DNA of 64,000 nucleotides from the NCBI GenBank assembly GCA_963971425.1, contig OZ020526.1:3871976-3935975 (forward strand). The letters are read 5' to 3'. Positions 3,113 to 58,249 of the stretch are shown in pieces. Within the stretch, counting starts at the first letter, position 1; each line of letters starts with the position of its first letter. A program made the position numbers and the translations under genes. Source of the DNA: Bryoerythrophyllum caledonicum. Taxonomy: Eukaryota; Streptophyta; Bryopsida; Pottiales; Pottiaceae. Below the pieces are notes generated by a model, which made no database searches, was not told the DNA's origin, and saw only the letters and a program-made list of their open reading frames with translations.

Positions 3113-3128
3113 GTTTTTTAGAATTGAG

Positions 3129-33670: not shown

Positions 33671-33681
33671 TGTGGCATGAT

Positions 33682-35478
33682 TTGGACGGATTTACCATTG
33701 ATAAAAGAGGCGAACCAACAACACCTCTCCTCACATATTATAACAGAGACACATACAACATGTGCCTAAAAAATTTGGGAACCAACAAAGCCCCCGGCCC
33801 GAACCATATACCTAACTCAATTCTAAAAAACATGCCCCCAAGATTCCATGACCTTCTATCATTATTCTTCCTTCATTGTTACAAACAAAGATCGATTCCT
33901 GCATCTTGGAAAACAAGTTTAACAATCTTATTCTACAAAAAAGGCAACCCATCCGTGCTACCTAACCACCGACCTATTGCCTTAGCTAACACCATTTACA
34001 AATTATATACTAGCACACTAACATCAATATTATCGGCCTGCGGGGAAAAACACCAAATATTACACAAAAGCCAAGAAGGGTTTAGAGCTGAGAGAAGTAC
34101 CACACGGCAACTTCAAACCCTCATTGCTGCTCTTGAGGATGCAAAATTCACCAATAAAGACATTTACATACTCTACATTCACTTCAAAAATGCATTCGGT
34201 TCCATTGACCATCCTCGATTGCTAGCCATTATGAGCGATCTTGAAAACCCGGAAGACGCAGTCACACTGGTTGGCAATATATACTCCCAATCTACCACTA
34301 CATATACTAGAGAATTCTTTGGTAATACACGCCCTATCCCCATCCAACGTGGTACCATCCAAGGCGATACATTGAGCCCATACCTCTTTATTATTTTTCT
34401 AGAACCTTTATTGAGATGGCTTCAAAGAGGTAATAATGGCTACACATTTGGCACCTCAAAAGTCACCGTAAACTTGGCCGCATATGTCGACGATCTAGCG
34501 GCCATCTCCGGACCTCTTAAATCACTCCAAATTCAATTAGACAAAATAGACAAATTTTGTTTATGGACCGGGATGGAACTTGGGGTCCAAAAATGTGCCG
34601 TAACTGGATGCCCAAACAAATCCAAAATAAACCCAACCGCCTTCAAAGCCCTTATCCAAGCTACCAATATCCACTATCGTAACTAACCAATTCCGGTTCT
34701 CAACCAAAACCAACCCTACATATACCTTGGAATAAACCTAGTCCCATCGTTAAAATGGAAAATTCAAAGTCACGCTACTACTACAAAACTTATTAAACAA
34801 TGCAAGGAACTTACACTTTGTCCGGCCACATTGCAACAAAAAATAAAAATGATTGATACCGTCATACGACCGGGTATCTCATATAGTTTCTATGCGGTCC
34901 CCTATTCCATGCCCGCCATAAACAAACTTGATAAAAAAATCATAGCCATACAAAAGAAAGTATGCGGACTCCCTAATTGTACGCCCAATGTCATAACACA
35001 ACTCCCCCACAAACTATTCGGATTAGAAGCCTTTTCCCTCAAAAATGCCTATCTATGTTGCATTGGAGAACAACTCCAAAATGCACTTAACGACAAGGGA
35101 CGACTAGGACTAATTTATAGTGGACTCCTTCGGCACATCCTTTCCATTTATAGAGGGGCACTATTCCTCCAAAGACTTAAAAAATCTGATTGCCTTTGGT
35201 CTCCCATTACCCGCACACTTTTTCTACTCAAAACAGAAGGCCAAACATTTCTAAAAAGCACACTAGAAGATTTGCTACTAGGCCTTGCGTCGCTTGAACA
35301 AAATTGGGCAAATGAAATACATAACCTCCCTAGACTTGACCGTCAATTATTCGCCAAACTCCTACAAAAACTTATTTCCGCAAACATTACCGATCTAAAA
35401 CAAATTACACTACCAAATGGAACACATTTTATGGACGACAAGAGCTACAAAACATTCTATGGTACCCCTCACAAATGA
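33682..35478 (+). pseudogene. LINE copy C ORF2, reverse transcriptase
   Basis: Two open pieces, 33682-34686 and 34831-35478, are split by TAA at 34684-34686. Motif B (GTIQGDTLSPYLF) and motif C (AAYVDDLAA) are intact. Motif A reads ILYIHFKNAFGSIDH: the catalytic aspartate present in copy A is histidine here, which would abolish polymerase activity. The piece ends at TGA 35476-35478, the same stop as in copy A, while the same frame stays open to 35973. Confidence 0.85.
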
Positions 35479-36960
35479 ATAAAAAGTGCACTAAATATTG
35501 CTAAACAATTATTCTGTCATCCTCCATGCCTCCCTATATGCCCCAACCCTTGCACCACTCACGCCCCACCTTACACACTTAAAGACCCGTACATCATTGG
35601 TCACAATGACATCCACCCCAACATCAACCTCCCATTAATCCCTCCAAACCCGCCACATGCACGACCATATGCCCTTCCACCACATATATTAAAAAATCGT
35701 TCCATGCACCCAATAAACAACATAACCGCGCACAAACATAGAAAGTACATTGACTCCAACAACATAAGCAAACAATATACGTCATACCTATGCCATTGGC
35801 CCCACAATAACACCATCTACACCAAATGGCTCCTGCAAAGAAATCTTTTCCCTTGGCACAACCCAAACGCTTCCTTACTTAACACCAAAATCCTCACACA
35901 ATACTACCTTAGAACTCAAAATAGTTACTACTTGAATATCATACAATTACACCATCCCCAAGCACAACCTTGAGATAGAAGATTTGTCGCGCCACCTCTT
36001 ATTATCCCCCTCCTTAACATCTTCACAACCGAATGCAACCCTGAAACTGACATCCTCGCACAAACAAATACAATCAAAATACAACAAGATAATGCCCACA
36101 TATACGAAGGTAATGGAAGACACCTAATAACCATACCACTCGCTAGACTACAATGGTTGTGGAACCAATATCACAACGCACTCCAAACCCACATTAACAT
36201 TGAACCAATACCCCAAACATTTGAAACCGAAATTGTTTGGCTATACCAAAGATATAAATACCAAATATCCAAAAATGATCGCTTTAAAAATGCACACTAC
36301 ACATTACCCGACCCTATCTTAGACTACCTTATTACATCTTTAAATATCAAACATTCATACTTCTCATCTCCCATTACATGCTGTACAAAAATTTCAAAAT
36401 TCTACTCTCCATTCGAATGTGATAAGATTGTTGGTTCTCTCGGAAAACCTTTTGATTAAAGGTGGAGCGGAATAGGCCTTGCACACCCTCACAACGAAGA
36501 AGAAACACAACAAGCAACACATTGGGCACGCCTTGCGGCAATCAATGATCCCAACCACAACATCACCATTATTATTACTCCCGACAATCATTGGTACCAC
36601 AACTCTAACCCACACTTAGGCCCATTCCCTGACTCTCACATCATAGTACTATTTGAAGCGGACTCTATGATTTACAAAGAACCCACTATACCACCGCAAA
36701 TACAAACAACCCGCCTTGAACCAGCAACCCTACGTATCCTATGTTTACATCACCAAACTCGAGAGGTAGTTATTTTAGAAAACCTCACTCATCTCAATTT
36801 GATAGCAAAAAATCTAAGCATTAACAAGGTATACACCGCAAGTTCGTTTCTTACACCTATTTCAATCCGTATAAACGGTAACAAAAAATGGTCTAAAACC
36901 CCCCACACAATCATCTCCGCACTACCAATTACCGAATTGAGCCTCCCCTTGCCCTATTAC
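35479..36960 (+). pseudogene. LINE copy C ORF2, connector between RT and RNase H
   Basis: The reverse transcriptase frame continues open from 35479 to 35973, with helical sequence (CHWPHNNTIYTKWLLQRNLF, TQYYLRTQNSYYLNI). It then meets TGA where copy A keeps CGA. The rest, 35974-36960, is homologous to copy A 1-970 and is broken into short frames. No separate domain is recognised in it. Confidence 0.6.
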
Positions 36961-36964
36961 CAAA

Positions 36965-37480
36965 TTAATACCGACCTTAAATTTGACCCCAACTTTAGCT
37001 ACTACACTGACGGCTCCTTTAAAGAACCACCGAAGTAAGCCCGAGACATTGGCATCGAGAAAAAGCCGGTTATGGGGTATACAATTCAACCAAACAAATT
37101 AAATTAGGCAAAAGACTACATGGACTCCAAAATATTCTAAGAGCCAAAATGATGGCTATACACAAAACCCTTAAGATAATCACCACTCAATACCCAAACG
37201 AACCGGCTCACATTTTTACAGATTGCATAAATGTATCACATCTCCTAAATACACACATGAAACACCCCACTTTACACAACAATCACCCGGACAAAACTAT
37301 CCTTACATCTATGGTTGCAATGCTCCAAAATCGCACACAAATTACTACACTCCACAAAGTCCGAGCTCATGCTAATATCGCCGGCAATGAACAAGCTGAC
37401 AAACTAGCAAAGGAAGGAAGAGAAAAAACCCACAAAAATGCCGAACACCCATACGAACACGCCCATGCCACCCCATAATA
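36965..37480 (+). pseudogene. LINE copy C ORF2, RNase H domain
   Basis: Motifs in order are SYYTDGSF (catalytic D), RAKMMAIHKTL, HIFTDCINV (catalytic D) and VRAHANIAGNEQADKLAKEG (histidine loop and last D). The second acidic residue of RNase H, usually E in RAE-MMAI, is K here. A frameshift near 37035 separates the first motif from the rest. The enzyme normally removes the RNA template strand. Confidence 0.82.
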
Positions 37481-37505
37481 CTTTCATAGATATGAATGGC
37501 TCTCT

Positions 37506-38522
37506 ATGGGCGAAACTCCCGATAAAGGCCCCATACGATTCTTGGACAAATACCTCAAAAAACATGATCTTGTAAATAACCTAGAAAAACTTACAGGAAA
37601 TTTCCTCAATATTGATAAATGGACCGGCAACCCAAACATTCACAACGTATTGTCCTACAATTTTTGGAAAAACCCCATAATTACGGATCCACATATCACA
37701 TGCCGAATTAAATTCTGCACTGGACAATACATGGGTAATGCCAACAAACAACTCTTCTTTGAAATAGAAAGATTTCCTAGAATAACATGTCCAATTTGCA
37801 ACACCATGGACCCGGACACATGGCTACATGTCTTACTCAAGTGCCAAAACCCCCATATACACTCACTAATTGTCAAAAGACATAACAAAGCCGTATGGGC
37901 TATTCGTAAACTACTTATATCATCAACCAAATCCCGGTGCTTCATTCTCATAAATGCCGGAACCTTTAATGACAACCCACAAGAAAATACGGTCCCTCCT
38001 TGGCTATTACCATGCATATGTTGCACTCAAAGATGCCACTGTAATGCAAGATTCAAACCGGACCTACTATGTGTTAGAGGACTTTCATACAAAGATCCGC
38101 CACCAAACCACATAGACCCTAGTCTCACCATCCAATTTATTGAATTCACATATTACAATGATAGATTCTCTCCGGACACTATTGCAAACAAAACAACTAA
38201 ATACCAACCACTATTTAACGATATTCAAGCACTAGGATGGAAAGTAGACCCCTTCATTGTCATCACCGCGGGTGCTAGAGCCACCACCTTCATTCCCTCA
38301 ATGACAACCTTTGAAGATACATTTAAAATCCCCATCACTTCAATCAAAACCACTTTTTCAAATATTAACACTATTGCAATTCAACATGCTATGTTGATAC
38401 TCGTGCACAAACGAAAACTTGAAACAACCAACCCCTTCATGATTCATCGAACCCCCTCCATGGACTTACATTTGCATTTCACCGTACACGCCCTCCCTCT
38501 TTTGGAGACTTTTGGGACCTAG
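37506..38522 (+). pseudogene. LINE copy C ORF2 C-terminus: zinc knuckle plus PD-(D/E)XK-like domain
   Basis: An open frame of 338 residues. Residues about 97-120 form a knuckle, CPICNTMDPDTWLHVLLKC (C-x2-C, H-x4-C). Further on, FKPDLLCVRG, then IQFIEFTYYND, then KTTKYQPL gives a PD...E...K pattern followed by GWKVDPFIVITAGARATTF. In R2-type LINEs a CCHC knuckle followed by PD-x-D and a K/KY motif marks the restriction-like endonuclease. The same stretch is kept in copy B. Having this plus an APE endonuclease recalls Dualen/RandI elements of green algae. Fold assignment is from motif order only. Confidence 0.6.
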
Positions 38523-39994: not shown

Positions 39995-41405
39995 CACGCT
40001 AGCAATGATCACAAATCAACATGGTTGCCGCGCCCTTCTTTTCACCATACACGAAACATGGAAGACCGCCTGGCACAATAGCCAACTCTGGATAAACGGA
40101 GCCATCAATGGATAAATGGCAGGGAGCACAATTCATAGAGTGCTCCTGACACTCTAAGCCATCCTTGTCTTCCAGCAACAAGATGCCAATCGGCAACACA
40201 TCCTTTACGCGAAGAATAGTGCGCCCTAATTTGACGTCCAACGTCGTAGCGCCTCACGCTGTAGATAAACGTAATCCTCCGTGGAGAAATGTCGCAGCTG
40301 AGGTTGGTAGGCACCGCTACAAATACGAGCATACTACAGTGTGTCATGGTGCTGAGCGATGGAAAAGTTCTCCCTTGCCATTGGCATGGCCTACTTGAAG
40401 AACTCTGCTTGATCCGTAGACACTGGCCCACACCTCTGGATCATCCAAATCCACAACCGAAGCCAAATTTTTCCCAATGAAACTCGGTAAAATTGGCTAC
40501 TGCCCATACAACAATTGATAGGGCCTAAAAGTAGCCAGTAAAGCCTGCCGGCTTAATTGGTACCCCATGGCAATCCATGATATCATTAGATCCCAATCAC
40601 AATGGCGGCCTTGAAGTAATCCATACTTCCGTAGGCCCCTCTTAACAGTCTGAACCACACACTTCGCTAAATCGTTTGCTTCTAGGTGGTTTTGAGAATT
40701 GATATGGTGATCAATCAAAGCTTTGGTATACAAAGTTTTGAAAGCTCAAAAGAAGTCAAGCCCCTAGTCAGCCAACACCTCAGCTCGAGGAATGCCATGG
40801 CCGCCAACTTTGAAAAGTTCTACGATAGTGCGACAAGCTCATTCCACTTATTGAAATGCTCCACCATGAGCAACACATATTTGGCTCTACGTGGGGTGAC
40901 AATAAGCAGCCCGGCAAAATCTTAGGACCGACGGAAGCTCAACCCCATCATGGTCAAAGGCTGCAAGTGCGGTGACTCTTTTTTGAAGCTGGATCGTATT
41001 TGATAACACACTTTACATTGAGAAACATACACAACGAACTGCTGATACATGTCGGCCCACCAGTATTGGATCTCAAACATTGAATGCGTCCGTCGCACAA
41101 TAAAATGTCCTACGTTTTTGTGTACTTGTCGTACTGACGGAGCCCTCTGATCTGGCCTCAGAACTATGTGCCTAGTCCCACTTGGCCACACCCCAAATAG
41201 AAGGCCATTTTTCCAACGGAACCCTACTATTTGGTACTCAATTTGATGACGCTCAATAGCAAAAGGAGCTGAAGTGAGTGTCATAAGTTGTAGCCTGTGT
41301 ATGACTAGACCGTCTTTTGACACATCGCTAATAACTTGGGCCTTGTCTGGTCCCTCATCCGTTGCCAGAGTAGGCAACATAGATGCGGAGCCAGACTTCA
41401 ATGTG
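39995..41405 (-). mobile_element. Ty3-type LTR retrotransposon fossil, integrase region
   Basis: A broken minus-strand remnant of a Ty3/gypsy-family element. Parts in order: integrase zinc-binding segment (about 41.1-40.9 kb), part of the integrase core (about 40.7-40.5 kb), and an integrase C-terminal segment (about 40.2-40.0 kb). No gag, reverse transcriptase or clear LTR is seen. It carries several breaks and looks old. Confidence 0.78.
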
Positions 41406-42615
41406 AGGTAAGCCGCTACATGCCACCCCGGGACTTACTCTATAACAATCTCGTGCCACCTGGCACCAGCCACATCCTCCTCCAAAGGACTTTTCTACTA
41501 TAGAATCAAGACTTGGGGATCTGATTTAGGAGTTGGGACTCTAACTCCTGGGATTTCACTCATAATGTCGTTCGCGCCTGTCATGGTGAATATAAATTTT
41601 ACTTTTTTCTTCTACGTTTCACCTTTTTTTTGTTTTACCCCGTCCTTGGTATCCATTTTTTTGTTTCACCCCGTCCTTGGATAACAACACGTGCATCGCC
41701 ACTATTGTTTCTATTGTTGCTGCCTATGCCGTGAGAACCATCCTATAGGCCGACAATTGTCTACATCAGAGGCCTAGCTCTAGCAACAATCATTCGTGAC
41801 ATTCAAAATGGGATTTTGACTTGTGTTTAAATCATAACCGTTTGATTTCATAGGAAGATTGTCTCATTTTCTCAAATTTCTAAATTATTTTATTTTATTT
41901 TGTTTTTTGGAATTTATATAATTGTCCTATTAGGGTTTCATTGCAGGAAATCATGTCAACTTTGAATAGTGTCATCCCCTTGATATTACACACCAATTGA
42001 CAGACACAACTAACCACCTCACAGTTCTAAATGCAGTTTTAATTCAAATAATAACACTCAAGCTCAAAGTCCATGTTACTGTGCAAAATGAATTGGCTTA
42101 GTCTGCGGTAGAACATCAATACTCATAATAAAATCCCAAAGGTTATCCATTATAATATATTCATAGCTTTACTCCGGTTAGACTTTAAATGTATTGAAAT
42201 TCCTCAACGCCTCACCACCGCAACCGGTGCTATAAATTCTACTTGAAATACGTACTATGATTAAGAAATGACTCCACCTCATCACGTCTCTGTGGTTTGA
42301 TAGTTCCACTCTTGAAAATTGAATGCCATACACACACCTTCTGCCATAGATACACCCATGCATGAATTATAGTACGCTAGGCTGCATTTAACAAACCACC
42401 ATTTCCACACTTGCTTTCTCATCAATCACATTCTTAAAATCCGGTACTATAGAAAAATACGTGACATTATTAGAATCGTTTGAAAACAATCGAAATTTTC
42501 CATCGTTATAACTTCGACAAAGACTCGCTTCTCTTCTGAAAAGACTACATTAAAGTTTTATAGTTCACTTCATCAAACTGGATCCGAAGTACCTCAAATA
42601 TAAGATCAGTACTTA
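41406..42615. other. No gene seen between two retroelement remnants
   Basis: AT-rich DNA without supported frames; possibly worn parts of the flanking retroelements. A tandem phrase TTTCACCCCGTCCTTGG occurs twice at about 41620-41680. Confidence 0.4.
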
Positions 42616-43127
42616 ATTGTTTGTCCCCAGAGGCATCAAAATGGACCCTCTAAACACATGCATATGCGCAATGCATGGCTTGTGACCACTCCAAGCTTCT
42701 TAGGATGTGATGGTGACGACAGCCCTTCATTGGACATCGATTGCAGATGAAGTCTTGTAGACCGCATTGGCCATCGCCTTTGCCCAAAATTCAAGCTTTA
42801 GGCATTGTGCATGAATCATGCTCCTTGCCATTTCCACTATGGTACAATTAGCACGCTCCGCGACTCCATTTTGCTCCGGCGTGTATGGTGTTGACGTGTG
42901 CTTCTCAATGCCATGCTTCTTCAAGAAACTTCGAAAGCCTTTGGATATGAACTCCCCACCATTGTCCGACCGAAACACCTTGATCTTGTGCTCCGATTGC
43001 TTCTCCGCAAAGGCCTTGAACTCCCTATACTTCTCAAGGCATTTTCCCTTTGTCTTCAAAATGTACACCCACACCCTCCTCAAAAAGTCATCAATGAAGG
43101 TCACAAAATACCTTGCGCCATCTATGG
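42616..43127 (-). mobile_element. copia LTR retrotransposon fossil, integrase piece
   Basis: A minus-strand Ty1/copia integrase fragment. It is the downstream half of an element whose upstream half lies at 62757-64000; the two halves are adjacent in family order and are separated only by the 19.6-kb DNA transposon. Reverse transcriptase and RNase H parts are not seen to the left. It is broken and incomplete. Confidence 0.88.
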
Positions 43128-43215
43128 GGGGAAAGTTGTTCCATGAGCCTGGAGCGGGGAGCAGGGAGCAGGGAGCAGGGAAGAAGGGAGTGGGGAGCGT
43201 GGATTCAATGGAAAT
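43128..43215 (+). repeat. Left terminal inverted repeat of the 19.6-kb MULE
   Basis: Starts GGGGAAAGTTGTTCCATGAG and continues with tandem GGGGAGC / AGGGAGC units to about 43205. The matching right end is at 62690-62756. The outer 20 bp agree at only about 12 positions, so the ends are worn. Confidence 0.72.
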
Positions 43216-43819
43216 TTACAAAAATAAGTATAGTCTCTTAGAGGTGGACCACAAAAACCAAGAGAATCATGGAGTCCCTAGTACCGCGGAATTGAATATA
43301 AGGTAAAATAGACTTCTCAAAGATTTAAAAAAATACGGTTTAGGGGAAAATATAATATCTCAAAAATGATGATACTTTTACTACTATACAAAATACAACA
43401 TTATACACTATCAGAACTCAAAAGTTCTGATTTTGAACTATGAATAAAACTTCCACCTAATTCCTATTTCCAATCTACAAAGTAGTTAATGTAACTAAAA
43501 TTTCAGAATATTGAGTAAAATATGTTTTCTACAATTATACGAACATCCGCGAATTTGGACAAAGCCATTGTACGAACACATTAAAGCAAATCTCAGCAAA
43601 ATTGCATAGAAACTAATCTAGCAACATGCAAATTTCTAAAAGTTCAATAGACTCTTGGTAAAGAAAAATGAACTAAGGTTGGAAACAGAAAATTATGAAA
43701 CCAAAGTAGTGGCCCTTGTAGTCTCACTACTACAATATATATAGAGGTATAACATATTTCACCATAAGATAGCTGGTGAAACTCAAAATCGTTGACAAAA
43801 ACAACTTAGTAACTACATA
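43216..43819. other. Left subterminal region of the MULE
   Basis: AT-rich and non-coding. It holds the inverted subterminal block at 43701-43729 that pairs with 62338-62365. It probably also contains the 3' untranslated region of the ParB-methyltransferase gene. Confidence 0.55.
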
Positions 43820-46800
43820 CTACTGCCTAGATAAAGATGAACTGAAAGTACCCCTCTGAAAGGAACTATTAGAACGACGTGGAGATAGTGAACTCATAGT
43901 AGTAGATGAATGTGAAGAGTAATCCGAGCTAACATCCCCACTCACAATAGAAGCTTCAAGAAATCGAACATCCTCTGCAGCCGACACATCCAAATATTTC
44001 AACACCCTAGGATCACCTACATAGCACGAAGAATGAAAATAAGTAGGGGAGGTAATAAGAGAGGCCTGAGCTAACGCCTCAGCATATACAGGTAAGTGGA
44101 AAGACTTCTCCGGGGACAAGCATGAAAGGTCATGAAGGATGTGCTCTCCATGTCTAGGGGTCTTTACACGTGAGCTGTGGCCAAAAAATCAGAGCAAGGT
44201 AAGAAACAAAAAACATAGAGAACTAAAAAATATAAATATAATGAACTAAGAAAATCAATATCCAATGCAAGACTTACGTACAGAATCGATTTCGTGGAAC
44301 TATATCAATCATTGGCTCATCTTCTTCTGCCGGCTCTTCATCATCATCACCACTGGACTGCCCTGCATAAATGCGCTGCTTCTTCAAGCCTTCACTCACA
44401 CCCTGGACAATAAGCGGCTGCAGAATGGAGTTGAAAATTTCACCATCGTCCTCCAATGCCGCAACATGGCGACCCGCCTTGCGACAAGCATGAATGGAGG
44501 CGCCTGCCAATGGAAATGGCAAATGAAAGTATAAGGAAAATGACAAGCATGTAAGTTCCAAGACTACATCAGAAGAAATTAGAGAATTGGCACCATACCA
44601 GTAGAAGCAGTACAATCAAGCACAATGTCTCCAACATGAGTAGTAGCCTCTATCAACATTTGAAGGAGAATAGGGTCCTTCTCTCGTGCCCCTCTCCATG
44701 GAATTGTGTCATGCATAAGCTGTGAGTCCTTTGTAACGACATTGTGGAGCACATCATCTGCCACAATATCCATGCCAACTTCCTCCAATTCTTGAACAGG
44801 TTTCAGGGCAAATAGAGATGGTGTGGAGCCCGGGATATTGCGAACAAGCAATTTGATGCCAAATCGAAGAGTTTGCAAAAAAAAGCCATGCAAAACTCAA
44901 ACGAATTGAATTAAAACTACAAGATTCATTCTAAAACAGAAAAATTAAAATGCTAATTATAAGAGAACTCATACCGTTTTTGAGGGGTCCTTGGCACTCG
45001 TCAAGCGCAAGCGATTGACACCCATCCACTCCTTAAAAACTCTGAAGCAATATGCTTTCATATAACCCTTCAGTTTAGAGTTCAAACCAAGATCGTCAGC
45101 ATGAAAAATTAACATGCTGCCATCATTATGAATATGATTATTGGCAAAATCAAATGCCAAATCCACAAAGTTTTCATGAAGAACATTCCAAGGAGGAATA
45201 GATGGAGAAATATTTGGGACTGGCAAGTTCTCTGGAACATCCACAACCATCAAATCCACACCAGATGTCTTCTCGGGATGCCCTGGGAAATGGCGGGGAC
45301 GATCTAGCTTGTGCTGATAGAAAACAATGAGTTAGAAAGTAAATCAACAGAAACTTGAAGTATAACATAAAAAGAAACAAAGGCAGTGGATTACCTTGTC
45401 AAGAAACACATGTAAATCTGTCCATGCCGTAGGAAATGTGTTGAACTTTGTAAGGTGAGCATCAATCGAGAGCAGGGAGCCATTGATAACACACTCATCT
45501 ACAGACTGAGTGTATTGAGCACTATCCTTGAGCGCATGAGAAGTACCTAGAAGTAGCCTAGACATAGAAAGCCCTGCAAACGTGGCGTCTCGTTTAAGAT
45601 GCAAACGAGATAACAAATCAGAAGAGGTAGGGGATACACCAACAGTGGAGGGGCTATCTCCTAAGGTGCCAGATCTTGCAGAGCCGAGAGCCGCTGCCTT
45701 GACCTCTGCCTCCTTTGCCTTTGCAGCAGCAAGTTGTGCTGTTTTTTGAGCCCTCTCCAAAACCCGCTTCGCTTCATTATCCTTCTTCTGCTTTTCCCTC
45801 TCAGCTTATTTCGCTCGCTTCGCAAGGATTTTCATCTGATCTCTCTCAGTCAAAGCACTACCACCGGCTGTGTCCGTAACCTCGTCACTAAGGTCAACAG
45901 AGGTCTGTGTCGTGGCACCAACAACTCCACTAACCTCTGACCTCTCATGAGATGCCCTTATTGCTTCCTCTTCTGCTGGACAAAATGGCTTAGAACAATC
46001 CAAGTACCAACAACCATCCTTCAAATGAATAATAGACCAGGACTGAATCTGACCGGGAGTATACATGCAATGAGAGGAGTCCTTATCAACCCAGGTCTGA
46101 AGAAATAGAGGCAGCTGATGCTGCTCTAAAGCTCCCTTAACCAAGAGCTCCTTCATAAAGTACCTGAAATATGCAAAGCAGTACTCACAAAATTTGAATT
46201 GAAACAAGTATAAAAATCTGAAATGAGTACCAAAAGACACAAAGAGTCTAACCTCCAAACAACACGCTTTACAGCCAAGTCGATATACTTGTGGTCCTTA
46301 AAAGCCTTGGATCTTGAGAATGTACTCTTACTGCGCAAGAATGTAGGAAACGCATGCATCCAGAGCTTAACTCTGGATGCCTCCACATACTCCTGAGGAG
46401 ATCGAGGCTTTACAGGTGCATCAAGCCTCAGAGGCAAATTGTCCTCTTTCAAGACGGATTCAAAATCCTCTGTAACGGCCTCTTCCATCTAAACAAGAGC
46501 AAGAGAAACTAATGTAACATTCTTTATAACTTGTAAGGAAAAATGCCATGAAAACTCCAAACTGAATCAAAATAGAGTAGTATGTGAGTAAATTAATATA
46601 AAACATATATACGAAGGATGTTCGTATTGTACCCCAGCCCAAAAAGAAGCTTTGTTCAACCAGGAGTCTAGTTCTTTATCACTAAATCCTCTTGCTGGGA
46701 AATGGAGTGCTTCCCGAGTTGCTTGGCTTGAATTCCACCACTCGAGCCATCGGACCTTGAAATGTGCCGGAACGTTGGAGGTTGCGATTAGCTGCAGCTT

Positions 46801-48171
46801 ATCCAAAGTCATTTCAGGCTTTAAATTCTTGCTCCAATGCTTAGTGACCTGAAATTCAAAGAAGACAAAAAATTAGCAAAGCAATCAACGAATCATCCAA
46901 ATGACAATGCGAAATTGCTTACCTCTTCGAGAAACTTGTCACCTAACTTGGGATTTGCAACTGCCAAAAACTTCGACCAATGGCCCTTGTACATTTGCAA
47001 CTTTGCCTTTGCCGCGGCTCTCATTGCAGCGGTGATGCCTAAATCAGTCCTAAGCTCAGGTGGAGTATTCTCTTGATACAACCTAGCGGCTTCATTAGAG
47101 GCATCAGCTATTTCTTGCTGATGCAAGAAACCAGACCTAAATTTATTAATAGGGAATAGTGGCAATGCCACACCACAATTGCTGACGAAAAATACAAGTG
47201 GTGCAATGAGACAAGAAACGAAATATTGAACCACGTACCCGAAAGAGAAGAGAGACGAAAACATCGACAGGCAATGGATACCATGACTTAGCGTGCCTAG
47301 GATTACTTAAACACTTGCGATAATCCTCAGATGAAAGCAAATCATGAAATGTTTCCAATGGTTGGCTCCCGATAGCCTTGATGCGATGCAGAATGTGCAC
47401 AAAATTTGTCTTCACGTGAGAGTTCTCGGTTGCTCTGAAGAAGACACATTCAAAACATAATGTAATATCATAATATGAGAAGACTCATTAGAATAAACCA
47501 TCAACAATCTGATTAAGGAATGTACTCAAAATTCACCTATTAATATCGTGCATCGCATGAAGGGCCAACTCAACATTGCCCTTAATATCCAGACAAATGC
47601 AATCAACTGAGATATGCCATTCAGCATCAGCTTGATGCACCCTCTCAATGAAACCCATCCACGCCCAAAACCGATGATTCCCATCACATACATAGAGCTT
47701 TCGATTCAGCAAGAAGCTCATGTGAGGGGAATCCATCAGCCCAGACTCGAAGCGATCACTGGCAGCATTCCAAAGAGGTCCCCACTTATGCCTGTCCTCA
47801 TCAGTGATGAAGGATTCCTCACCAAGGCCATTTGTAAGAGATACATAAAAGACTGTAGCTTCAGGTCGGTAACCATGTGTAAATTCCGCTTCAAGTCGCT
47901 TTATGTCCGAATCCAGAGTTGGACGAACCAATGGCATATACGAAAGCCTGCACAGAGGAATGTCAAAACGGGGGCATGCCCTTGGAGAAATCCTTAATGT
48001 GTCAATTGCTGAAATGCAATTAATCCTCTGAGCTTGTCGAAGCTCGTCCTCGTTTAAGTGAATGTGGCAATCCATCTCCTGTGGCTCTGACAACTGGACA
48101 TCTGGAGCTGAACTTCCGCCAACAGAAGGTTCCGGCGAGCGCGACGGGTTCTCGGACGAAGATGGATCCAT
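43820..48171 (-). CDS. ParB-like / beta-class DNA methyltransferase-like protein of a MULE transposon
   Basis: Ten exons with consistent phases: 48171-47537, 47434-47239, 47117-46923, 46848-46633, 46488-46253, 46163-45395, 45313-44975, 44872-44599, 44503-44278, 44174-43820. They total 3441 nt (about 1146 aa). Residues about 65-235 resemble a ParB/sulfiredoxin-type domain, with RKLYVCDGNHRFWAW at 158-171 in place of the usual DGxHR. The middle is unrecognised, then a K/E/A-rich coiled coil (about 600-650). Residues about 765-1000 look like a beta-class N4/N6 methyltransferase: DLMVVDVPEN at the DPPY position, GSMLIFHADD, WRGAREKDPILL, and the SAM motif GDIVLDCTASTG with RHVAALEDD. DPPY has become DVPE, so catalysis is doubtful. 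Two lesions are visible: TAA at codon 612 (45806-45808) and a CAG to CAA change at the intron 7 acceptor. All other splice sites are canonical. A short upstream exon is possible. Confidence 0.75.
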
Positions 48172-48331
48172 GATCTGAAGAAAGAAATGGAACATATGAA
48201 GTCGGAGAGTTAGTAATCGATTTCAAGACTCTGGCGTAATTGCGAATTTTACATCTGAACAATAGTTCAGACATTGTAAATTCTGGAACGCAACTCTAAA
48301 TCAAGTTAGACTCAATACTGAATATAAACAG

Positions 48332-49574
48332 CTTCGGCGCCGAAGTAGTGTAAAGGTTCCGCATTCCGAAGGACCCTGAGATTACATCTTGTAAGTTATA
48401 ACCAATAGTCGGCACCGACGCTAACTAATTTCAATTATTAATTCCGTTTTTTAAGTTGAATCTCGACGGACATTCATCAAAAACACTACAGCGTCGGCAC
48501 CGACGCTGCATGGATTATATTAGATTCTCCGAATTTCCTCAATGAATCATAGAATCACGCCATCCAGAATATCGCCGGTAGTCGAATATGAGAATAACTT
48601 ACATTTTGAATGAACTAATCAGTTGAACATATCTAGCATTTGATCTCTGACAAAGACTAGCGTCGGTACCGACGCTCACTGAGCACAATCTAATTTATCA
48701 AGAATTGTAGCAAAATTTGAACCTTCACTAGACTAAAAGAAATCATGGGAGGGTAAATAAAACTGCGTCGGCATCGACGGGAGACATTTTTGAGAATAAT
48801 CCGAGCGTAATATCGAAAACATTTGGACAATATACCAATACTCTGCTCAAATACATTCCACCATTGACCACTTGCCAAGCAGCAGCGAGCGTATGACCAC
48901 GAACTTAGCCAAAAAGGTCAATTTCAACAAGGATCCTCTGACTGTGACCAACAGAGTCACTCAATCTAGTATAGATTTCAAGTTCTACGAAAATCGCTAC
49001 CAGGTGCGTCGGCACCGACGCTGCCTACAACCGACAATCACATGCCGAGCTCCATGGCGATCCGAGACATTTGTGGCTCAAGCTCGGCGTACAACCTTCT
49101 GCACTCAAGCTCGGCGCACAATCTTCTGCAGCAAGACCTGAATTCATTTCCCTTAAACTACCAGGAAAGAAAGCAAGGCGGGCAGCGTCGGCACCGACGC
49201 TGTAGTTACCAGACGGGACATGATCCGTAAGATCCGAGTTCCGAGTGCGAGAAGAAAATTAGCGAGGAGCTCTCGAAGCTGGAAAGCGTTTACGAGGATC
49301 AACTCAGAGAGCTGGTGGTTCGTGGACTCGCTCAGCGAGCAAGTGGTTCGTGACGGGGTTTGTGGACCCGCTCCGAGTGGTGATGATGATGTAGCGCATC
49401 ACGATGAAATCCGAGTTCTGGGACGAGAGCAGCCCAACTACGAAATCCAGCCACTTCTATAACAACCATAACGAAATCTCTCACGAGCAGGACTAAGGCA
49501 GCAGCAGCGGCCACAAGACGGAGGTCTCTTACCGGTCCGCCCCGAGCCTGGTGTCTACTACGTCGGTGCCGACG
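48332..49574. repeat. Array of eight 14-18 bp palindromes beside the ParB-methyltransferase start
   Basis: Sites at 48332 (CTTCGGCGCCGAAG), 48407, 48490, 48659, 48765, 49006, 49184 and 49561. The best form is AGCGTCGGCACCGACGCT: perfect 8-bp arms around CA, TA or TG. Spacing is irregular (75-380 bp), so this is not a simple tandem repeat; the palindromes are conserved while the spacers differ. The array lies between the two divergent genes, starting 160 bp before the ParB-methyltransferase ATG. I infer a protein-binding or modification site array. Around 49070-49135 a separate 26-bp phrase about AAGCTCGGCG is tandemly doubled. Confidence 0.82.
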
Positions 49575-51235
49575 GCATGAAGACCTAGTTCACGAACTCT
49601 GAAGGGGCCATCTCTAAAACTCCGACTTCGCTGACAGAGGAGAAGACTGAAACGAGTGATTATAGGATTGGGTAGACATACCCTAGCAGCGGCGCTACTC
49701 CACGGTCGTCCCGACTGCGCGCACGACCTAACTGCGACCTCCTTCGGCGACGAGGTATCCTACATCAGATGCACACACTTGTTAGTTTTGATTTTGTTCA
49801 AGGACACTGAAGGGTAAGAAGAGACATAACAACAATATTCGACTCTCCGAGCCGCACGCACCACTGACCGCGAAGAACAGAAAGTGTTGCACAGTTTGTT
49901 AGCGCTAGGGTTTCATGCCCAGTAACCGACAATTCGTATTCCTAACTGGAATACGGTCATACCATATTCTGGACCATACGTATTCTGGCCTGGAAAGTCT
50001 GTGGTCGGCAACATATCCAATTTATTGGCATCTTTGAATTGCAGTTTAAATGTTTACACACTATCTACCGAAATCATATTATGGATCACCAGTATAGCAT
50101 TTGTGTCGCTAAATTTTTATAGACTGATCTCATTATTTATTTTCAAATTTCAACAAGGAATACTGAAATAATTATTCATTGCCAACACTTACCACTTCCA
50201 ATGCGCTATGCGGAAATCCACGGCCCTCCTGCTCCGAGCCACTTGATTCGAACCTCAACTCCTTTATAGTAGACAAGAGACGTGAAATGTCAATATCTGA
50301 TGTCATATCTTCCTTCAGCCGACACCCTCTGCCTGGGCTACTCTCCTTTGAACTAGCTCCTACACCGCTCCATTCCTTTTGCTTTAACTCTTTCTACAAT
50401 CGATTTCTTGAAATGGTTTTCCTACTGGAGAATCTAAACCTTGTCCTCCGCCTCCCTCTGGTGCCCCTTCCTGAAGGCGTTTTGAATTGCCCATCAAGCA
50501 TTTGCACGAAATACCAATCAAGATCTAAGCACAAAATTCATAGATCTACTAAGACAAAACCTTCAATCTCCACACTCATCATAATGTCTCGGACAGTTTG
50601 TATTCTACAACTGATTGATAGCTCATTTGAATCCATTGGCAGTAGATGTTTGCTCCCCCTTTAAAGTGACCATATTCATTCAATCATGTCCACAGTTCTC
50701 CTGGCGTGTACAGGATGTATCCAGATCAGTATGTCGCAAAATACTCTTCCACTTGACAATTTGAAATGCCTACCACTCTGGCGCCATCATATTATAGTGC
50801 ATTCTTGTACTATTACTTCACTGACATAAAAATGAGCTTTAACAGGCTTCCTATGTTGTCCGCCTACTTGGTTTACATCTATTTCAAGTTACCCAACTCG
50901 ACGTACGTTACTTCGAATTCCTGTTTTATTTAGTTATCGCCGCGAATTTGTCATGCAATCCTTATATATCAAATGTATAATAAATGCATTCATGATGATA
51001 ACCACTTTTAATTAACATTCATCCAATTCCAACCCAATCTGGTATACCAGTGGCTGTTCTACAAGATTAGGGTGGATATATTGGTGTCCAACTGAGTTCT
51101 CCTTTCTAAAAATTTAGACTGAATCAATAATAGCACGTTTCAGAAATCTATCTGTTATGCGTAAGAATTTAATCCGTGGAAGTGATACTAAGAGAAGGCT
51201 TCTTCTTCCTCTAGTGTGACAGTAGCTGATGCTTC
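49575..51235. other. Region between the array and the transposase start
   Basis: No supported gene. A 161-codon frame at 50179-50664 is open on the plus strand but shows no domain and may be chance. Upstream exons or promoter elements of the transposase could be here. Confidence 0.4.
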
Positions 51236-53965
51236 ATGGACACAATGGGAATAGGTGATTGTCACAACACTATGGCCGTTATCCGGGCTTCTGACAATAG
51301 TTTGCCTCTAACAATCTCTCTCTGTGAGGATGGATATGCTCACGTTTCAGCTTCACGGTTGAGCCTTAGATTCCATTTGAAAGCTGAGTCCTTGCATCTC
51401 GATGAAGAGATTTATGATTCTTCCACCGGTTGCATGAGTCATACTATAGGTCAACTTCATACTTGTGATGGTAATGATAAGCTCTAGTTGCTTAAACCTG
51501 GAAGATTTAGAGTTTATGGAATTAGGGACAGTTTTACTGAATTGTCAACAGTAAATGCTACTCATCGAACTTCCCGAACACCAATTCTCTCCCGAGTGAA
51601 ACTTGACTTTGACTCTAACATGGTCACTGTCTTGAGTGATGACTCCGATGCAAATTCTCCAACTCGTAAGTTTGCATCTCCGCTATCATCACTTGAGCGC
51701 CCAGTACCAAGTTCTTCTGCTCCTCACTATCATGTACGAGATAGTACTCCACCTCGTAAGTTAGCATCTCCGCAATCTTCACAAAGCCGAGTACCTAGGT
51801 CTTCTGCTGCCCATGGTTCTCCAGCTAGTAAGCTAGCATCTTCGCAATCATCAATAGAGCGACCAATACCTAGTTCTTCGGCTCCCCATTGCCCAATCAA
51901 ATTTGGGTCATCAGTTGCAGGCGTTAAAGATGCTGTGAGTATCGTAGATTCACTCAAACTTCTTCGTCATGCAAAAGGATCTAGAAACATGTTGAAGAAG
52001 ATTGACTATAGCACTGTCCGTATTGAAAGAGTGCATTCTCTTTCATCTAAATTCAATGACAACGTCATTTTTGAGTTACCTCCTATCCATGCGACTGGAA
52101 CGCTCTTGCAGGCAAAGTTGATGACTGGCATGGACAAGCGCTACGATGGACATGACTGGACCAAGACAATTACTTCGCATATCAAGAACAAGGCGGGATT
52201 GACGTTTCGTACATCGACTTGCCTCGGCCATCTCCAATGCGATAATGCTAATTGTGCTTACTTGACTCGGGTTCATCGAACTTCACCTGTCAACAATACA
52301 GAGTGGGAGGGCACGTCGTCGTCGTCGTTTTCACCTGGTTGTCCTCCTCCACCAGGTTCAACTATGGTTTGTAAGACTTGTAAGGTACCTCCTTCTTGCA
52401 TTGCGAGTTGTGATGCAAGAATTTACTATGTATTTGGCAGTTCTAGTATGACACGTGCATGTGTGCATTTAGGAGTTCATGGTCATCCCGTGAAAGTTGG
52501 TGACTACAGAGACTTAATCGATAGGACCAGTGCCCTTCTTGGGAGCATGTTGAGAGGACCCCAAATGCTACGACCTCATCAATTGTTCTAGAGGCAAGCA
52601 AAGATCTTCTTGGTGAGCTCCTTTTGCGTCCTGAAGGTGCTTCATCAAAGTCATTGAATCTAGAGGAGTTGGTACCTGATCTTGACAAGTGCAAGTCCAT
52701 TACTTCACCTAGTATTCGGAATAAAGTCACAACTTTTAGGTGCCTACGGAGGTTTGGCATCATGGATAGTATTACCAAATTGCGGGGCTACAACAATTGG
52801 GCTTTTATTCAAGAGAGTAAATTTCCAGGTCAAGGATCCGATTCAGACAAAGTTTTTGTGTTTAAGATGGCTGAAGTTGGGCCAAGAAGTGGCGTAGACT
52901 TGGTGAGTCGAATGTAGCCAACAGGCGACCTCGAAGACGCATGGTTGATGTTTGACCATGTAAAGCGTGTCAAGCATTGGACCACGATGGCTTGCCATGT
53001 TTATGATTCAACCTATTGCAGGGTGATGACCATAGCAGTTTGTGATATGCAATCCGAGGATGTCGCAGCTCAATGCATTTTTTGGAGAAATCTGAATGCA
53101 GTATTGGTACGTCACAACATTCCAGATCCTCAGTTCAAAGGATTCATGGCTGACAGTGCTCAGGCAAATTGGAATGCATTGCGGATCATCTATGGAAGTG
53201 GTGATGCATCCGTTCCAATGATCAATCGAGAACGAACTTGTCTCTTCCACTGGACCCAGTCGTTGGAAAAGCATACGAAGGCCGATATCCGTGCTGATCT
53301 TCAAGATCAACATCGTCAACTCTGCAAACAATATAAGAATGCAGAAACGTTTTCGGAGGCCAAAACTCGATACTATGCCATTGTCGGATGGTGGCATTCC
53401 TCAGGCGCTACAACCGAAGAGGGGTTGCGGCGATTGGAGTTGTGGCTCGCCTTTTGGCATTTCCGATACCGTCAGTGGGGTGGATTCATGCAATTGGTAA
53501 GCTTAATCTTAAATGCATTTATTTAGGTGCTCAAATACATAAAGTCTTATTTTGTTTATGGTAATGGTTGAGCCAGTTTTGTCCTAATTGTTCTGGCACA
53601 TGTGTAGGGTCTCAATGATGCTCAGCTAGCCGAGATGCCCTCCTGCAATCTTGCGGAGACAATCCACAACAAATGGCTTCAACAATCCGGTAATCGAGGT
53701 AATGACTTATATGTGGCAACAGTGGATGACTTTGTTAGGGCGTTCATGCAAGTGGTAAAGTATTACCAATTCCTAAAAGGTGATCGTGGAGGCAATGGCC
53801 CTGGTATGGAAGAGTTGCTACTAAGGGTTGCCCAACGTTCCGTCTCGCGCTGAAGGAATCCCAAAGTCCTCAATGACGCTATGGCACGAATGCCCGGGGG
53901 GGGGATTGCTATTTTGCGTGCCCAAATTTGCGAGCCGCGAGCCGCGAGCCTAGGATTGCGAGCCT

Positions 53966-54770
53966 AGAAATAAAAAAGTTGTGTATTTTTTACAAAAGTA
54001 AAAGTTAAAGAAAAGCATAAAGTTAGAAAAAATATAATTTTAAAAAAAAAAATTAGAAAAAAAATGAAGTTAAAAGTAAAAGTTCAAGAGAAGGGGCCCT
54101 ATAGCCGTGGAAATTGATGAACCGTTGTCATTTATATTAACCTAGTCCTTTGTTATTAGGGCTTTGGGTTATAAATGGAGGTGATCTTGACTGCTAAAAT
54201 GGTTTAGGCACCCTATGGCCGTGGGCGTCTGAACCTTGATTCAAAATAAACTGGTAAACCTATGGATACACCATAGGTTTATAATCATTATATCACACTC
54301 CACATAAATTTTTATTGGAGAGTGATTTAACATAAAGATTTCTCACGCTCATATTATAGATAGCCTCCGGTAGATGTTTCCCCACGCGTTTGTCATAGAT
54401 AGTCTTGGGCAATAGAATGGACTCTTAAGTAGAATGATGGGCTTCATTATTCAAAGCTACCTTGTATTGAACTCTGTAGAGCAATTCTTGAGAGGCTTGA
54501 CAGTTCAAGTTATGTTGTGGTTTAGGGTCATATTATGGGACTTAGAAATTGTACTTTAAATTGGTGCAGCTAGAAGTAGTGAGTATATAAGGGTAGAGAG
54601 AGCAGTAGGTATTCATGAGCGTTATTCCAAAAGTCCTAAGAGTTGCGCAAGTGGATCATAGAGTCTTAGAAGTTTTGTTTAATTGATATGGATCTGCTTG
54701 ATTGATAGAATCATTTTGATTTGCTAGAAATCAAGTAGAGGTGACATAGATGGAGCAGATAAGTATGAAT
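53966..54770. other. Left subterminal region of the nested MULE
   Basis: AT-rich with no gene. The phrases CCCTATAGCCGTGG (about 54098) and CCCTATGGCCGTGG (about 54213) have inverted counterparts near the right end (CCACGGTCATAAG at 60817, CCACGGTAATAGG at 60901). They look like subterminal binding motifs. Confidence 0.5.
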
Positions 54771-55265
54771 GTGGACATCACAAAGCTCATTTGCTTGGGA
54801 AATGGTGAAAACTCAAAACTACATTTTTTACTACACTATGACTTTTAATGCAACTAGAGGTGGGTGATAACACTAACATCACCTTCAATGCGGTTGATAG
54901 TTCGGTGAAGGCATACAAGTGTGTCCTTTTGATGTACTCTCAAGTATTTGAAACAATGTTCAAGAATAATATGAGGGAAGCAATCACTTTGGAGGTTGAT
55001 GTGCTGGACATTTTAATTAAAGAACTGAAGTTCTTCATGGTGATCTTGTATATTCCTTGGAGGAATTTACTTAGATGGACCCGTTGAGTTGCTGATTATG
55101 CCGCCAGTGTTTCAGAAAGCCGTTGATATGCTATTTGATGAACTATTTGTTGCATGCATAAAGTATGAAGTGTGGGCACTGGAGGCCACACTCATTGCCG
55201 AAATGAAAGACCATTTGACGCGAGAAACTGCAATGTGTATTGGCGCCAGAGCACGACAATGACCC
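54770..55265 (+). pseudogene. BTB/POZ-like fragment 1 in the nested MULE
   Basis: The frame from 54848 reads LEVGDNTNITFNAVDSSVKA, then KCVLLMYSQVFETMFKNNM, matching the start of a BTB domain (D-x-x-F, H/Y-K-x-x-L, S-x-x-F). Later text in another frame (MPPVFQKAVDMLFDELFV) fits BTB helices. It is frameshifted. It may be a host gene fragment captured by the transposon. Confidence 0.45.
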
Positions 55266-56225
55266 AGAACGCGAATGGAATGTGGATTTGCAAGAGCTAC
55301 ATCAAGCATTACATTCAACACTACTAGTCAAGGTCGACAAAGGGAATGGACAGTGGTAGTGGTTTTACACCCGCATTTTTAAGCAAACTTCGAGAAGAGA
55401 ATATGGATTTGTTTAAAAATGCGGGCAATTGAAATGATATGCAATTGCAACATCCCACGGGGCCATGGCGCAGTCTGAGTCAGGAGAGATATGCTCCGCC
55501 ATCAGCCTGATGAAGTCATACAAATATTTGTGAAATAAATAAACAAAAAATGATGTTTGAGGAAATAACAAGAACTCCAACTAACTTACTCAATCCAATT
55601 TTCTTTGTAACTTTGCAGATTGTTTGATCATAAAAAAGATGCCAGGTAGTCCATAAACATGAAGAATCAACAATATACATAAACATGAAAGAATCAACAA
55701 GTGCAGCGATTGTTTGATCGTGAAGAAGACCTCAAGGAAGACGTCAAATCTAAATGAAACAAAGCCTCCCAAGGGCCTCCATCAGACAAAGCAAATGCAG
55801 AAAATCAACAATTGTCAATGATCAATTCAAAAAGCACCTTGATAGGGCCGCCGATAGCGGCATTCCAATTGATGAGCTTTGTGAATTGTAGATGTTAGGT
55901 TGCTCTACTAGAAATTGAGAAATAAACTCTAAAATGAATTGCAAACGCAGTTGTCCTATTCTTGTAGAGTTGGAGGGCTTCAATAAAAAAAAGGAGAGTT
56001 GAGGGAGACTGGATTATATGGTTAGTTTTAGATTTCTTAGTCTCTTTCAATAGATCTTTGTCTTTCTGAATTTTAGAGTTTTAAGATTGGTTGTGGATCA
56101 ATGCTAGGGACAAGAGTGTTGAGGAGGCTGTGAGAGATGTGGTTTCAATTCTTTATAACTATTGTAATTGTTGGCACTTGAGATTTGGATATAGTCAAAC
56201 AACAAGATTCAAGATGAAGCAGACA
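55266..56225. other. Spacer between the two BTB-like fragments
   Basis: No gene recognised. The phrase GATTGTTTGATC recurs at 55618 and 55706 with related context, so part of this is an internal duplication. Confidence 0.4.
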
Positions 56226-56700
56226 TGATAGAAAACTCCACGCTAAATTTGGACATCTCAGAGCTAATTAGCGTGGGAAGGGAGATTATTTGAAAGCTTC
56301 CATTTTGATGAAATTACAAGGTCCTCATCTAATTGATCATTGAAGATAATATAGATGTAACATTTCATATAATCGTAAGATTGGTGAAGGCACACAAGGA
56401 AGTTTTCTCGATGTATTTGGTGGTATTTAGAGCAATGGTGAAGCACAAGATGGAGGAAATAATTGCTTCCATGGACGGTCTATAGCTGTTCATTATGTTG
56501 TATGTTCTTGATGGAATATACTTTGATTGGACTAGACAAGTTGCAGAAAATGCCAACGGAGTTTTCATGAAGATATTGATGACCATTTTCATGAACTCTT
56601 TGATGCATGCATTAAGTATGGAGTGAGGTCGCTGAAGGCCACGATAATCTCCGGCATGTGAATTAGCGTTGATCAATGACCATGACCTTCAATATTAGTG
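56226..56700 (+). pseudogene. BTB/POZ-like fragment 2 in the nested MULE
   Basis: A diverged duplicate of fragment 1: both begin with a TTGGACATCTCA / GTGGACATCACA phrase, then DVTFHIIVRLVKAHKEVFSM and VFRAMVKHKMEE. It is broken by stops and frameshifts. The pair shows a tandem duplication of about 1.46 kb within the nested element. Confidence 0.45.
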
Positions 56701-56919
56701 GAAAAGATGACTACAAGTAATACTTTGTCAATCACAAGCACTTGTACCTTTCATTTTGGACAAAAGAAATAGACACAAGCAATGCATTTGCGAGCCCTTA
56801 TTTGAATCAAATTTGAGTAGATAAGGATTTGGAGTTAGCTAAATGGCGTGGTTGATTGATAAGATTTGATAAGATTCAATACAATATCATGCAATATTCT
56901 TCACAATCATCATACTTGT

Positions 56920-58215
56920 AAAAAGAGTGCCGACATCGGCACCCCCTAGGACGCTCTTCCCATATCCTTTGAGAGGAGTCTCCAAGGCAGTACACATTGA
57001 CACTCATCCAAAAGATCCTTCCTATCTGTAAAAAAGAAATCTTTAGAGGGAGTGCCGACATCGGCAATCCATAAGAGGGCCTATTTTATCTTCAAAACGG
57101 GATCCTCTAAAGGGGATGCCGACATCGGCAACCCCCTAGAATTCATATCCACGCTCTGGAAATTTTTGAGAGAATTCCAAAATGATATTGCACTTTATCA
57201 TCCAACACTTTAAGAACAAGTTATCCACGGATGAAGTAGTGAATTCCAAGACTTCATCCGTAGATAACTTATTCTTTGAGTGTTGGATGATGAAGTGTGA
57301 TACCATTCTGGAATTCTCTCAAAATTTTCTAGAGTGTGAATATAAATTCCAGAGGGTGCCGATATCGGCACTCCTTTTTGGAAGTTCCATTTAAAATATT
57401 GGATAGGCCTTCTTGTAGAGTGCCGATGTCGGCACCCCCTTTGGAGGTTCTCATTTTAAACAAAAGAAGAGTCTTCTAGTGGAGTGCCGATGTCGGCACC
57501 CCTTTTGGAGGTTCTCTTTTTAACAATAGAAAATATCTTTTTGAGGGATGTTAAATTTTAATGTCAAAATTCTTTTTGAAGGTTTCTTTTAATAAAAATA
57601 TAAGGGCATCCTAGGGGTGCCGATGTCGGCACCTCCTTTAGAGGTCTCAATTTTCCTTTTCAAAGATATATAGATCCTCTAGAGGAGTGCCGTTGTCGAC
57701 ACCCTTCTAAAGATTGATTTTTAAAAATGAGAAAGCTCCTTTAGACGAGTGCCGGTATTGGCACTACCTTTGGAGGTCTCTTTTCTAAATATAGGAGGAG
57801 CCTTCTAGAAGAGTGTCGGTATTGGCATCCACTTTGGAGGTTTCATTTTTAAATATAAGAAGGATCCTGTAGAGGAGTGCCGATGTCGGCAATTCCATTG
57901 GAGGTTCTCTTTCTTAAAATATGAAGGGCCTTCTAGTGGAGTGCCAATGTCCGTATCTTCCCTAAAGATTCTTTTTTAAAAACATAGGAAAGGTGTTTTA
58001 GAGGGTGTTAATGTCAGCATTCCATTTCTAGGTTTTTTTTCTAGACATGCGAATGATCCTCTAGTTTGATGCCGATGTCGGCATCCTCTTTAGATGGTTT
58101 TTTTTCATATGTAGGATGGATTCTCTTGTAGAGTGCCGATGTTTGCACCTCCTTTGGAGGTTTTTTTTTTAAAATATAGGAGAGATTCTGTAGAAGGGTG
58201 CCGATGTTGGCACCT
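56920..58215. repeat. 64-bp tandem array with palindromic core, inverted about its middle
   Basis: Each unit holds TGCCGATGTCGGCA or a variant. Clear copies start at 56928, 57053, 57117, 57357, 57421, 57485, 57618, 57688, 57750, 57814, 57878, 57942, 58006, 58070, 58134 and 58199, mostly exactly 64 bp apart. The flanking text of each unit (GGAGTG before, CCCCTTTGGAGG after) reads one way to the right of 57244 and the opposite way to the left. The array ends just before the transposase homology. Confidence 0.88.
57131..57356. repeat. Long hairpin at the reversal point of the array
   Basis: Imperfect arms of roughly 100 bp: TTATCATCCAACACTTT and CACGGATGAAGT on the left pair with ACTTCATCCGTAG and GAGTGTTGGATGATGAAG on the right. 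The centre is near 57244. The homology runs outward into the flanking 64-bp units, so the hairpin and the array reversal are one structure. Confidence 0.82.
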
Positions 58216-58249
58216 CCATAGTGGTTGGAGCGTGCAAGGATTAGCTCGG

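Follow-up and report, generated by a model that had tools for sequence, protein, structure and literature searches.

A candidate palindromic recognition site between the divergent genes of a large MULE-like transposon

Can a transposon carry both a short sequence that marks its own DNA and a gene for a protein that recognizes this mark? The question is raised by a 64,000-nucleotide stretch of contig OZ020526.1 (the window). An earlier note had described here a plant transposon in which a gene of ParB and methyltransferase type stands beside eight short palindromes, and had suggested that its product binds or modifies them for anti-silencing, segregation, or control of transposition. Our analysis finds a large DNA transposon (the outer element) in which an accessory gene, the one noted earlier, and a transposase-like gene point away from each other on either side of the palindromes. 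A related transposon (the nested element) has inserted into the transposase-like gene and carries its own array, in which a similar palindrome has diverged; a recognition site would be expected to behave in this way, and the palindrome is thereby supported as a candidate for one. Positions of all features are given in Table 1.

The outer element is a DNA transposon. Identical copies of a target site duplication (TSD) stand at its two ends, and the reading frame of a copia integrase is restored when its flanks are joined, reconstructing the empty site. The transposon described earlier is therefore real, with TSDs and restored empty sites, while its extent is 43128-62757 and not 43820-49574, a span that missed the transposase, a second gene located beyond the array. 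Without the insertion, counted as the nested element plus one TSD copy, the outer element measures 12,441 bp. MULE transposons are recognized by TSDs of about 9-11 bp together with terminal inverted repeats (TIRs), and these hallmarks are present here, with TSDs of 9 bp (outer) and 10 bp (nested) and TIRs on both elements. In the outer transposase-like gene, DDE and SWIM-like residues were picked out by eye; a Pfam scan of four of its pieces (E up to 1) gave no transposase family, so that these contain no recognizable MULE domain. The boundaries are observed, as is the divergent order of the accessory gene (minus strand), the array, and the transposase (plus strand), and the whole is best explained as a large DNA transposon of MULE-like type in a probable plant host.

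The accessory gene has 10 exons and encodes 1147 amino acids when one in-frame stop is read through. Its intron borders are GT/AG, with the acceptor of intron 7 (TG) as the sole exception. The open frame and splice borders of the 10-exon model proposed earlier are upheld, save for this acceptor and the in-frame TAA.

The palindromes are far more frequent than chance would allow. With up to three mismatches, CGTCGGYRCCGACG has 14 matches in the window, compared with 1.01 expected, a number reached by 0 of 100 shuffles. Eight of the 14 make up the array at 48332-49574. The nine matches with two mismatches or fewer are these eight sites and one at 19751, and within the array the sequence is exact at five of the eight sites, the others being those at 48332 (two mismatches), 48407 (one), and 48766 (one). 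The 18-mers at the eight sites are 77% identical, a value inflated by the choice of sites through the motif itself, and their 25-nucleotide flanks are 26-27% identical, which is about chance. The description of eight palindromes separated by unrelated spacers thus holds. A 27-bp tandem duplication occupies 49077-49130 in one spacer. Helical phasing of the eight sites (Rayleigh test) gave R 0.715 and p 0.014 at 10.5 bp alone and p 0.28 over 10-11 bp, and the nested array gave R 0.31 at 10.5 bp with a maximum of 0.61 at 10.66 bp; neither result is used as evidence.

The nested element sits inside the outer transposase gene, and joining its flanks gives a continuous transposase frame. Its own transposase remnants align with the outer gene by tblastx (E 3e-49 and 4e-47), with 47-54% amino acid identity in the four longest same-strand pieces. 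About 1 kb inside its right end lies a 20-nucleotide version of the subterminal motif, with one mismatch to the right outer copy. This near-identical motif and the homology of the transposases identify the two elements as relatives. The nested array, upstream of the transposase remnant, is mostly composed of 64-bp tandem units. Across 12 of these the palindrome shows 78% likeness, compared with 52% elsewhere in the unit, and it is the second-ranked 18-column window of the unit (0.870 compared with 0.880). Within this array, 56994-57493 is a 500-nucleotide inverted repeat, 76% self-complementary, and a possible foldback or source of small RNA.

The two palindromes can be compared base by base. 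The outer palindrome, AGCGTCGGYRCCGACGCT, and the nested palindrome, also represented by the form AGTGCCGACATCGGCACT, have equal length (18 nucleotides) and a common centre, and they differ by three transitions per half-site and zero transversions. In this post hoc comparison, the likeness of the half-sites is equalled by 18 of 1680 permutations; counting transversions as acceptable raises this to 94 of 1680. Searching the window with a joint motif, AGYGYCGRYRYCGRCRCT, gave 20 matches, compared with 0.47 expected, and 19 of the 20 are within the two arrays, a fit that arises by construction because the motif was derived from both. From their sequences, the two arrays look like versions of one candidate recognition motif that has changed specificity from one relative to the other.

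What kind of protein does the accessory gene encode? Its C-terminal domain is methyltransferase-like in sequence, with residues 750-1000 forming a domain of the beta-class DNA methyltransferases. Pfam family PF01555 (N6_N4_Mtase) matches with E 8.2e-5 (domain alone) and 4.4e-4 (full-length protein), neither of which reaches the curated cutoff, and a PHROG DNA methyltransferase matches with E 4.9e-6. A phage profile was assembled from relatives of two phage ParB-methyltransferase fusions, assigned without a Pfam scan: 160 IMG/VR loci (best 80 per search), 150 of them with an open reading frame (ORF) of 360-520 amino acids, were supplemented with Streptococcus phage EJ-1 and reduced at 75% identity to 58 members. 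With this profile hmmsearch gave E 2e-8, the lowest value among 400 shuffles and 132 further ORFs of the window being 0.55, and hhalign gave a probability of 95 and E 2.6e-8 over 199 columns, a score reached by 0 of 150 shuffles. The sequence FHADDLGLN fits the pattern HADxxGLN, present in 11 of the 58 phage relatives. The beta-class order of motifs is kept, with the motifs themselves degenerate: motif IV reads DVPEN (residue 774), where the 58 phage proteins hold 55 matches to DPPYN, and motif I reads DCTASTGAS (residue 949). Of the beta-class motif set claimed earlier, the domain and the order of motifs are therefore borne out, and intact motifs are not. With DVPE in place of the catalytic DPPY, and with motif I degenerate, catalysis is doubtful, as is the modification of DNA once considered for this protein, which may bind rather than methylate.

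Searched against phages at E up to 1, the methyltransferase domain matched 185 records, with no place covering 80% of the query. Of four loci examined, two (EJ-1 and Javan369) encode ParB_N together with N6_N4_Mtase, the ParB_N score of Javan369 being slightly under the curated cutoff, and the matches span 74-78% of the accessory domain. No ParB_N was found at a third of the four, a Gordonia phage locus. The fourth, with a short motif-I match, is an ORF of 255 amino acids, too small for a ParB domain. With single-sequence queries, whose reach is limited to close relatives, there was no match in IMG/VR for the spliced domain or for a transposase piece, and no relative of exon 1 in GTDB genomes or IMG/VR; a search of phages with exon 1 gave none either.

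These findings suggest a way in which the element might work. We infer an accessory protein, related to phage-type ParB-methyltransferases and with a ParB-like N-terminus, that would bind the element's own palindromes, alone or in a complex and probably as a dimer. The bound protein would hold both divergent promoters open in the face of silencing by the host, in the manner of VANC in VANDAL elements, and binding rather than methylation would be its main activity. That the protein recognizes the array between the promoters and keeps the element expressible, by binding more probably than by methylation, is a tentative reading to which we give somewhat less than an even chance. A more specific version, which we regard as improbable, supposes a ParB clamp of phage origin, its methyltransferase dead, that would load at the array, spread from it as from parS, and shield both promoters, with array and protein diversifying together so that each family protects itself.

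The N-terminal domain is putatively ParB-like, an assignment that is likely from the protein architecture and draws also on the DGNHR sequence and the order of strands and helices in a poor structural model. Box II of ParB is defined as GxxR (PMC12704722). A loose Box II pattern, [VILM]x[DENSGA]G[HNEQ]xRxxA, composed after the sequence was seen, occurs in 138 of 200,000 exon-1 shuffles; of the 56 phage relatives, among the 58, that had enough of the ParB part, 29 have it in the N-domain. The structural model of exon 1 has a pLDDT of 42, an unusable quality, and its ParB-like order is our own reading; a trimmed model was worse (pLDDT 35, also unusable), and Foldseek with the former returned 44 rows with a best E of 0.56, none of them named ParB or Srx.

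Several observations weigh against the binding proposal. Pfam, PHROG, and other sequence and profile searches found no ParB domain in exon 1, and its hhalign score against the phage ParB domain was matched by 33 of 150 shuffles, while that of a gap-tolerant position-specific scoring matrix for phage ParB was reached by 273 of 300. Profile-profile comparison, a check proposed in the earlier note, thus favours the methyltransferase and gives nothing for ParB, whose trace in the sequence is DGNHR. Among the best 30 of the 185 phage records, the lowest E-values belong to short motif-I matches (9e-5 and 3e-4, compared with 5e-3 for EJ-1), and because of this the fusions are not claimed as nearest kin. 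Two of the eight outer sites (48332 and 49561) miss the joint motif at three mismatches. The in-frame TAA marks this copy of the accessory gene as damaged, so that statements about the protein refer to a reading frame with an unproven product. Finally, the accessory gene is undetectable in the nested element (best tblastn E 0.47). Self-recognition, as suggested before, is accordingly favoured by the diverged array of the relative, and a strict pairing of ParB with the palindrome is disfavoured by that relative's having array and transposase without that gene; the suggested role in segregation finds no support at this locus.

The nested element is also where a different explanation begins, in which the palindromes serve the transposase, as a family-wide enhancer or a transposase-binding array, and the accessory gene is a mere neighbour. 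The same transposase family, the subterminal motif, and an array upstream of the transposase remnant occur there together with no detectable accessory gene. The nested element is a wreck, however, and its accessory gene may have been lost, while the outer array, at more than 5 kb from the left end, is placed differently from the subterminal repeats that transposases usually bind. This explanation seems to us unlikely, if a serious contender. Considerably less probable is that the accessory protein binds the element and marks its own DNA with N6-adenine or N4-cytosine methylation, which would suit a domain with beta-class motif order and resembles what passages of PMC12477816 propose for algal proteins. 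Here the altered residues of both catalytic motifs argue the other way.

Host factors could also be the readers of the array. RCCGAC is the core motif of DREB/CBF factors, and stress-inducible promoters would be expected if such factors used it. Counted on both strands, it occurs 14 times in 48300-49600, compared with 2 in 43128-48299 and 3 in 49601-53900, and 11 times in 56900-58950. The core is part of the outer palindrome by construction, however, and DREB/CBF factors bind as monomers and would have no need of an 18-nucleotide palindrome whose outer bases are conserved; we think this explanation very unlikely. Alternatively, the arrays may be structural or neutral, in the form of hairpins, foldback sources of small RNA, or decayed tandem repeats. 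The inverted repeat and the 64-bp tandem units of the nested array fit such an origin, but the outer spacers are unrelated while the palindromes are alike, and similar palindromes occur in two related elements, which makes this the most remote of the explanations considered.

How far does the proposed binding resemble systems already described? Passages of PMC12477816 describe Sola1-1_Ec32 from Ectocarpus, a 21.5 kb element with a 1104-amino-acid protein that is said to have ParB-like and N4C/N6A methyltransferase domains and is encoded on the strand opposite the transposase. They propose that such algal-transposon proteins bind and modify their own element, and they cite Petroll 2025 for similar proteins in transposons. 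The present element is likewise a giant (19.6 kb), with a product of comparable size (1147 compared with about 1,100 amino acids) opposite the transposase strand. It differs from that description of a brown-algal element of the Sola-1 superfamily in its probable plant setting, 9-10 bp TSDs, palindrome array, and degenerate catalytic motif. Fusions of ParB and N6_N4 methyltransferase are more frequent in phages, according to passages of PMC12704722. Like such proteins, for example EJ-1 ORF37, the accessory protein has a methyltransferase domain that aligns end to end, with the HADxxGLN pattern of 11 of the 58 relatives; unlike them (about 420 amino acids, DPPYN), it has 1147 amino acids from 10 exons, a long middle region, and DVPEN. 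Partition systems of ParB and parS share with this locus a cluster of palindromes next to a gene that has a GxxR box, whereas the ParB domain is unproven here and there is no indication of a role in partition. In VANDAL elements of Arabidopsis, passages of PMC5735166 describe VANC targets as lying in non-coding repeats and as varying between related elements. By that description the likeness would lie in a plant transposon with short, non-coding repeated motifs (here candidate targets) that have diverged between relatives, and the difference in the VANC21 motif, which has nine bases (YAGTATTAY) and is no palindrome.

The kind of protein is thus already known, because such proteins have been reported in algal transposons with a proposal of self-binding. 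New here are the plant host, which is probable, a candidate binding site, and a divergence of sites between relatives that resembles the evolution of VANC targets. The string 'palindrom' has 0 occurrences in the main text of PMC12477816, and neither PMC5890265 nor PMC12636532 contains 'ParB'. Among the matches listed from the open-licence literature, none reported a plant transposon with a ParB-methyltransferase gene, or a palindrome array adjoining such a gene, a weak absence since the primary algal sources are outside that literature. Where the algal passages name no site, the locus supplies a candidate, the array of 18-nucleotide palindromes, together with the array of a relative in which the half-site has changed, and the binding proposal can therefore be tested by comparing cognate with non-cognate DNA. 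A plant host, to which the neighbouring B-box gene points, would extend the class to plants, suggesting that plant transposons reuse DNA-recognition modules of bacterial viruses and, possibly, that there is a second, independent solution to the problem that VANC solves.

Table 1. Positions of features in the window.
Feature	Position	Strand	Remarks
Outer DNA transposon	43128-62757		19,630 bp; 9-bp TSD; restored empty site
Left TSD CATCTATGG	43119-43127		identical to 62758-62766
Right TSD CATCTATGG	62758-62766		identical to left copy
Left TIR, G-rich	43152-43198	+	47 nt, 85% to reverse complement of 62693-62739
Right TIR	62693-62739	-	partner of 43152-43198
Left subterminal motif containing AGTGGCCCTTKTWGTCTCAC	43705-43728	+	24 nt, 92% to reverse complement of 62338-62361
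Right subterminal motif	62338-62361	-	partner of 43705-43728
Accessory gene, exon 1	47537-48171	-	residues 1-211, candidate ParB/Srx domain
DGNHR, candidate ParB Box II (GxxR)	47671-47685	-	residues 163-167; context VCDGNHRFWA
Exon 2	47239-47434	-	gene model
Exon 3	46923-47117	-	gene model
Exon 4	46633-46848	-	gene model
Exon 5	46253-46488	-	gene model
Exon 6	45395-46163	-	contains in-frame TAA 45806-45808
Exon 7	44975-45313	-	motif IV DVPEN ~45227-45241; HADDLGLN
Exon 8	44599-44875	-	start of motif I (DCTAST-GAS); non-canonical TG acceptor before exon
Exon 9	44278-44503	-	gene model
Exon 10 and stop	43820-44174	-	gene model
Palindrome 1 CTTCGGCGCCGAAG	48332-48345		weakest, 2 mismatches
Palindrome 2	48407-48420		1 mismatch
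Palindrome 3 AGCGTCGGCACCGACGCT	48490-48507 (core 48492)		18-nt form
Palindrome 4 AGCGTCGGTACCGACGCT	48659-48676 (core 48661)		18-nt form
Palindrome 5	48766-48779		1 mismatch
Palindrome 6	49005-49022 (core 49007)		18-nt form
Palindrome 7	49184-49201 (core 49186)		18-nt form
Palindrome 8	49561-49574		CGTCGGYRCCGACG match
Outer transposase-like gene, first part	51488-53523	+	damaged: three open stretches that differ in frame or have stops between them
Outer transposase-like gene, exon split by nested element	53608-53900	+	one further stop; frame resumes beyond nested element
Outer transposase-like gene, last part	61090-62257	+	terminal CxC..CxH, SWIM-like, by eye
Nested related transposon	53901-61079		7,179 bp; 10-bp TSD TGCCCGGGGG at 53891-53900 and 61080-61089; TIR 58 nt, 93%
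Nested palindrome array AGTGCCGAYRTCGGCACT	56926-58916		12 matches at up to 3 mismatches, 0.02 expected
Nested transposase remnants	58343-59845	+	tblastx to outer gene

Other features of the window are of minor relevance here. In the nested element, the region 54979-56660 contains two related stretches (55043-55189 and 56495-56642, 73% alike) with fragments that look by eye to be of BTB type, and it is perhaps captured host sequence. Scanning the window for Rfam families and tRNAs gave no match. A B-box zinc finger is encoded at 19292-19945 on the minus strand (PF00643, E 2.3e-5, above the cutoff), likely as part of a host gene with a GC-rich 5' part, and we take its product to be of the plant BBX type, which makes a land plant the probable host. 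An integrase zinc-binding domain at 40928-41434 on the minus strand (PF17921, E 8e-10) indicates a further retroelement. Two stretches, 1-5534 (minus strand) and 32077-38519 (plus strand), appear by eye to be two copies of one long interspersed nuclear element (LINE), with strong GC skew and near-identical stretches of peptide.

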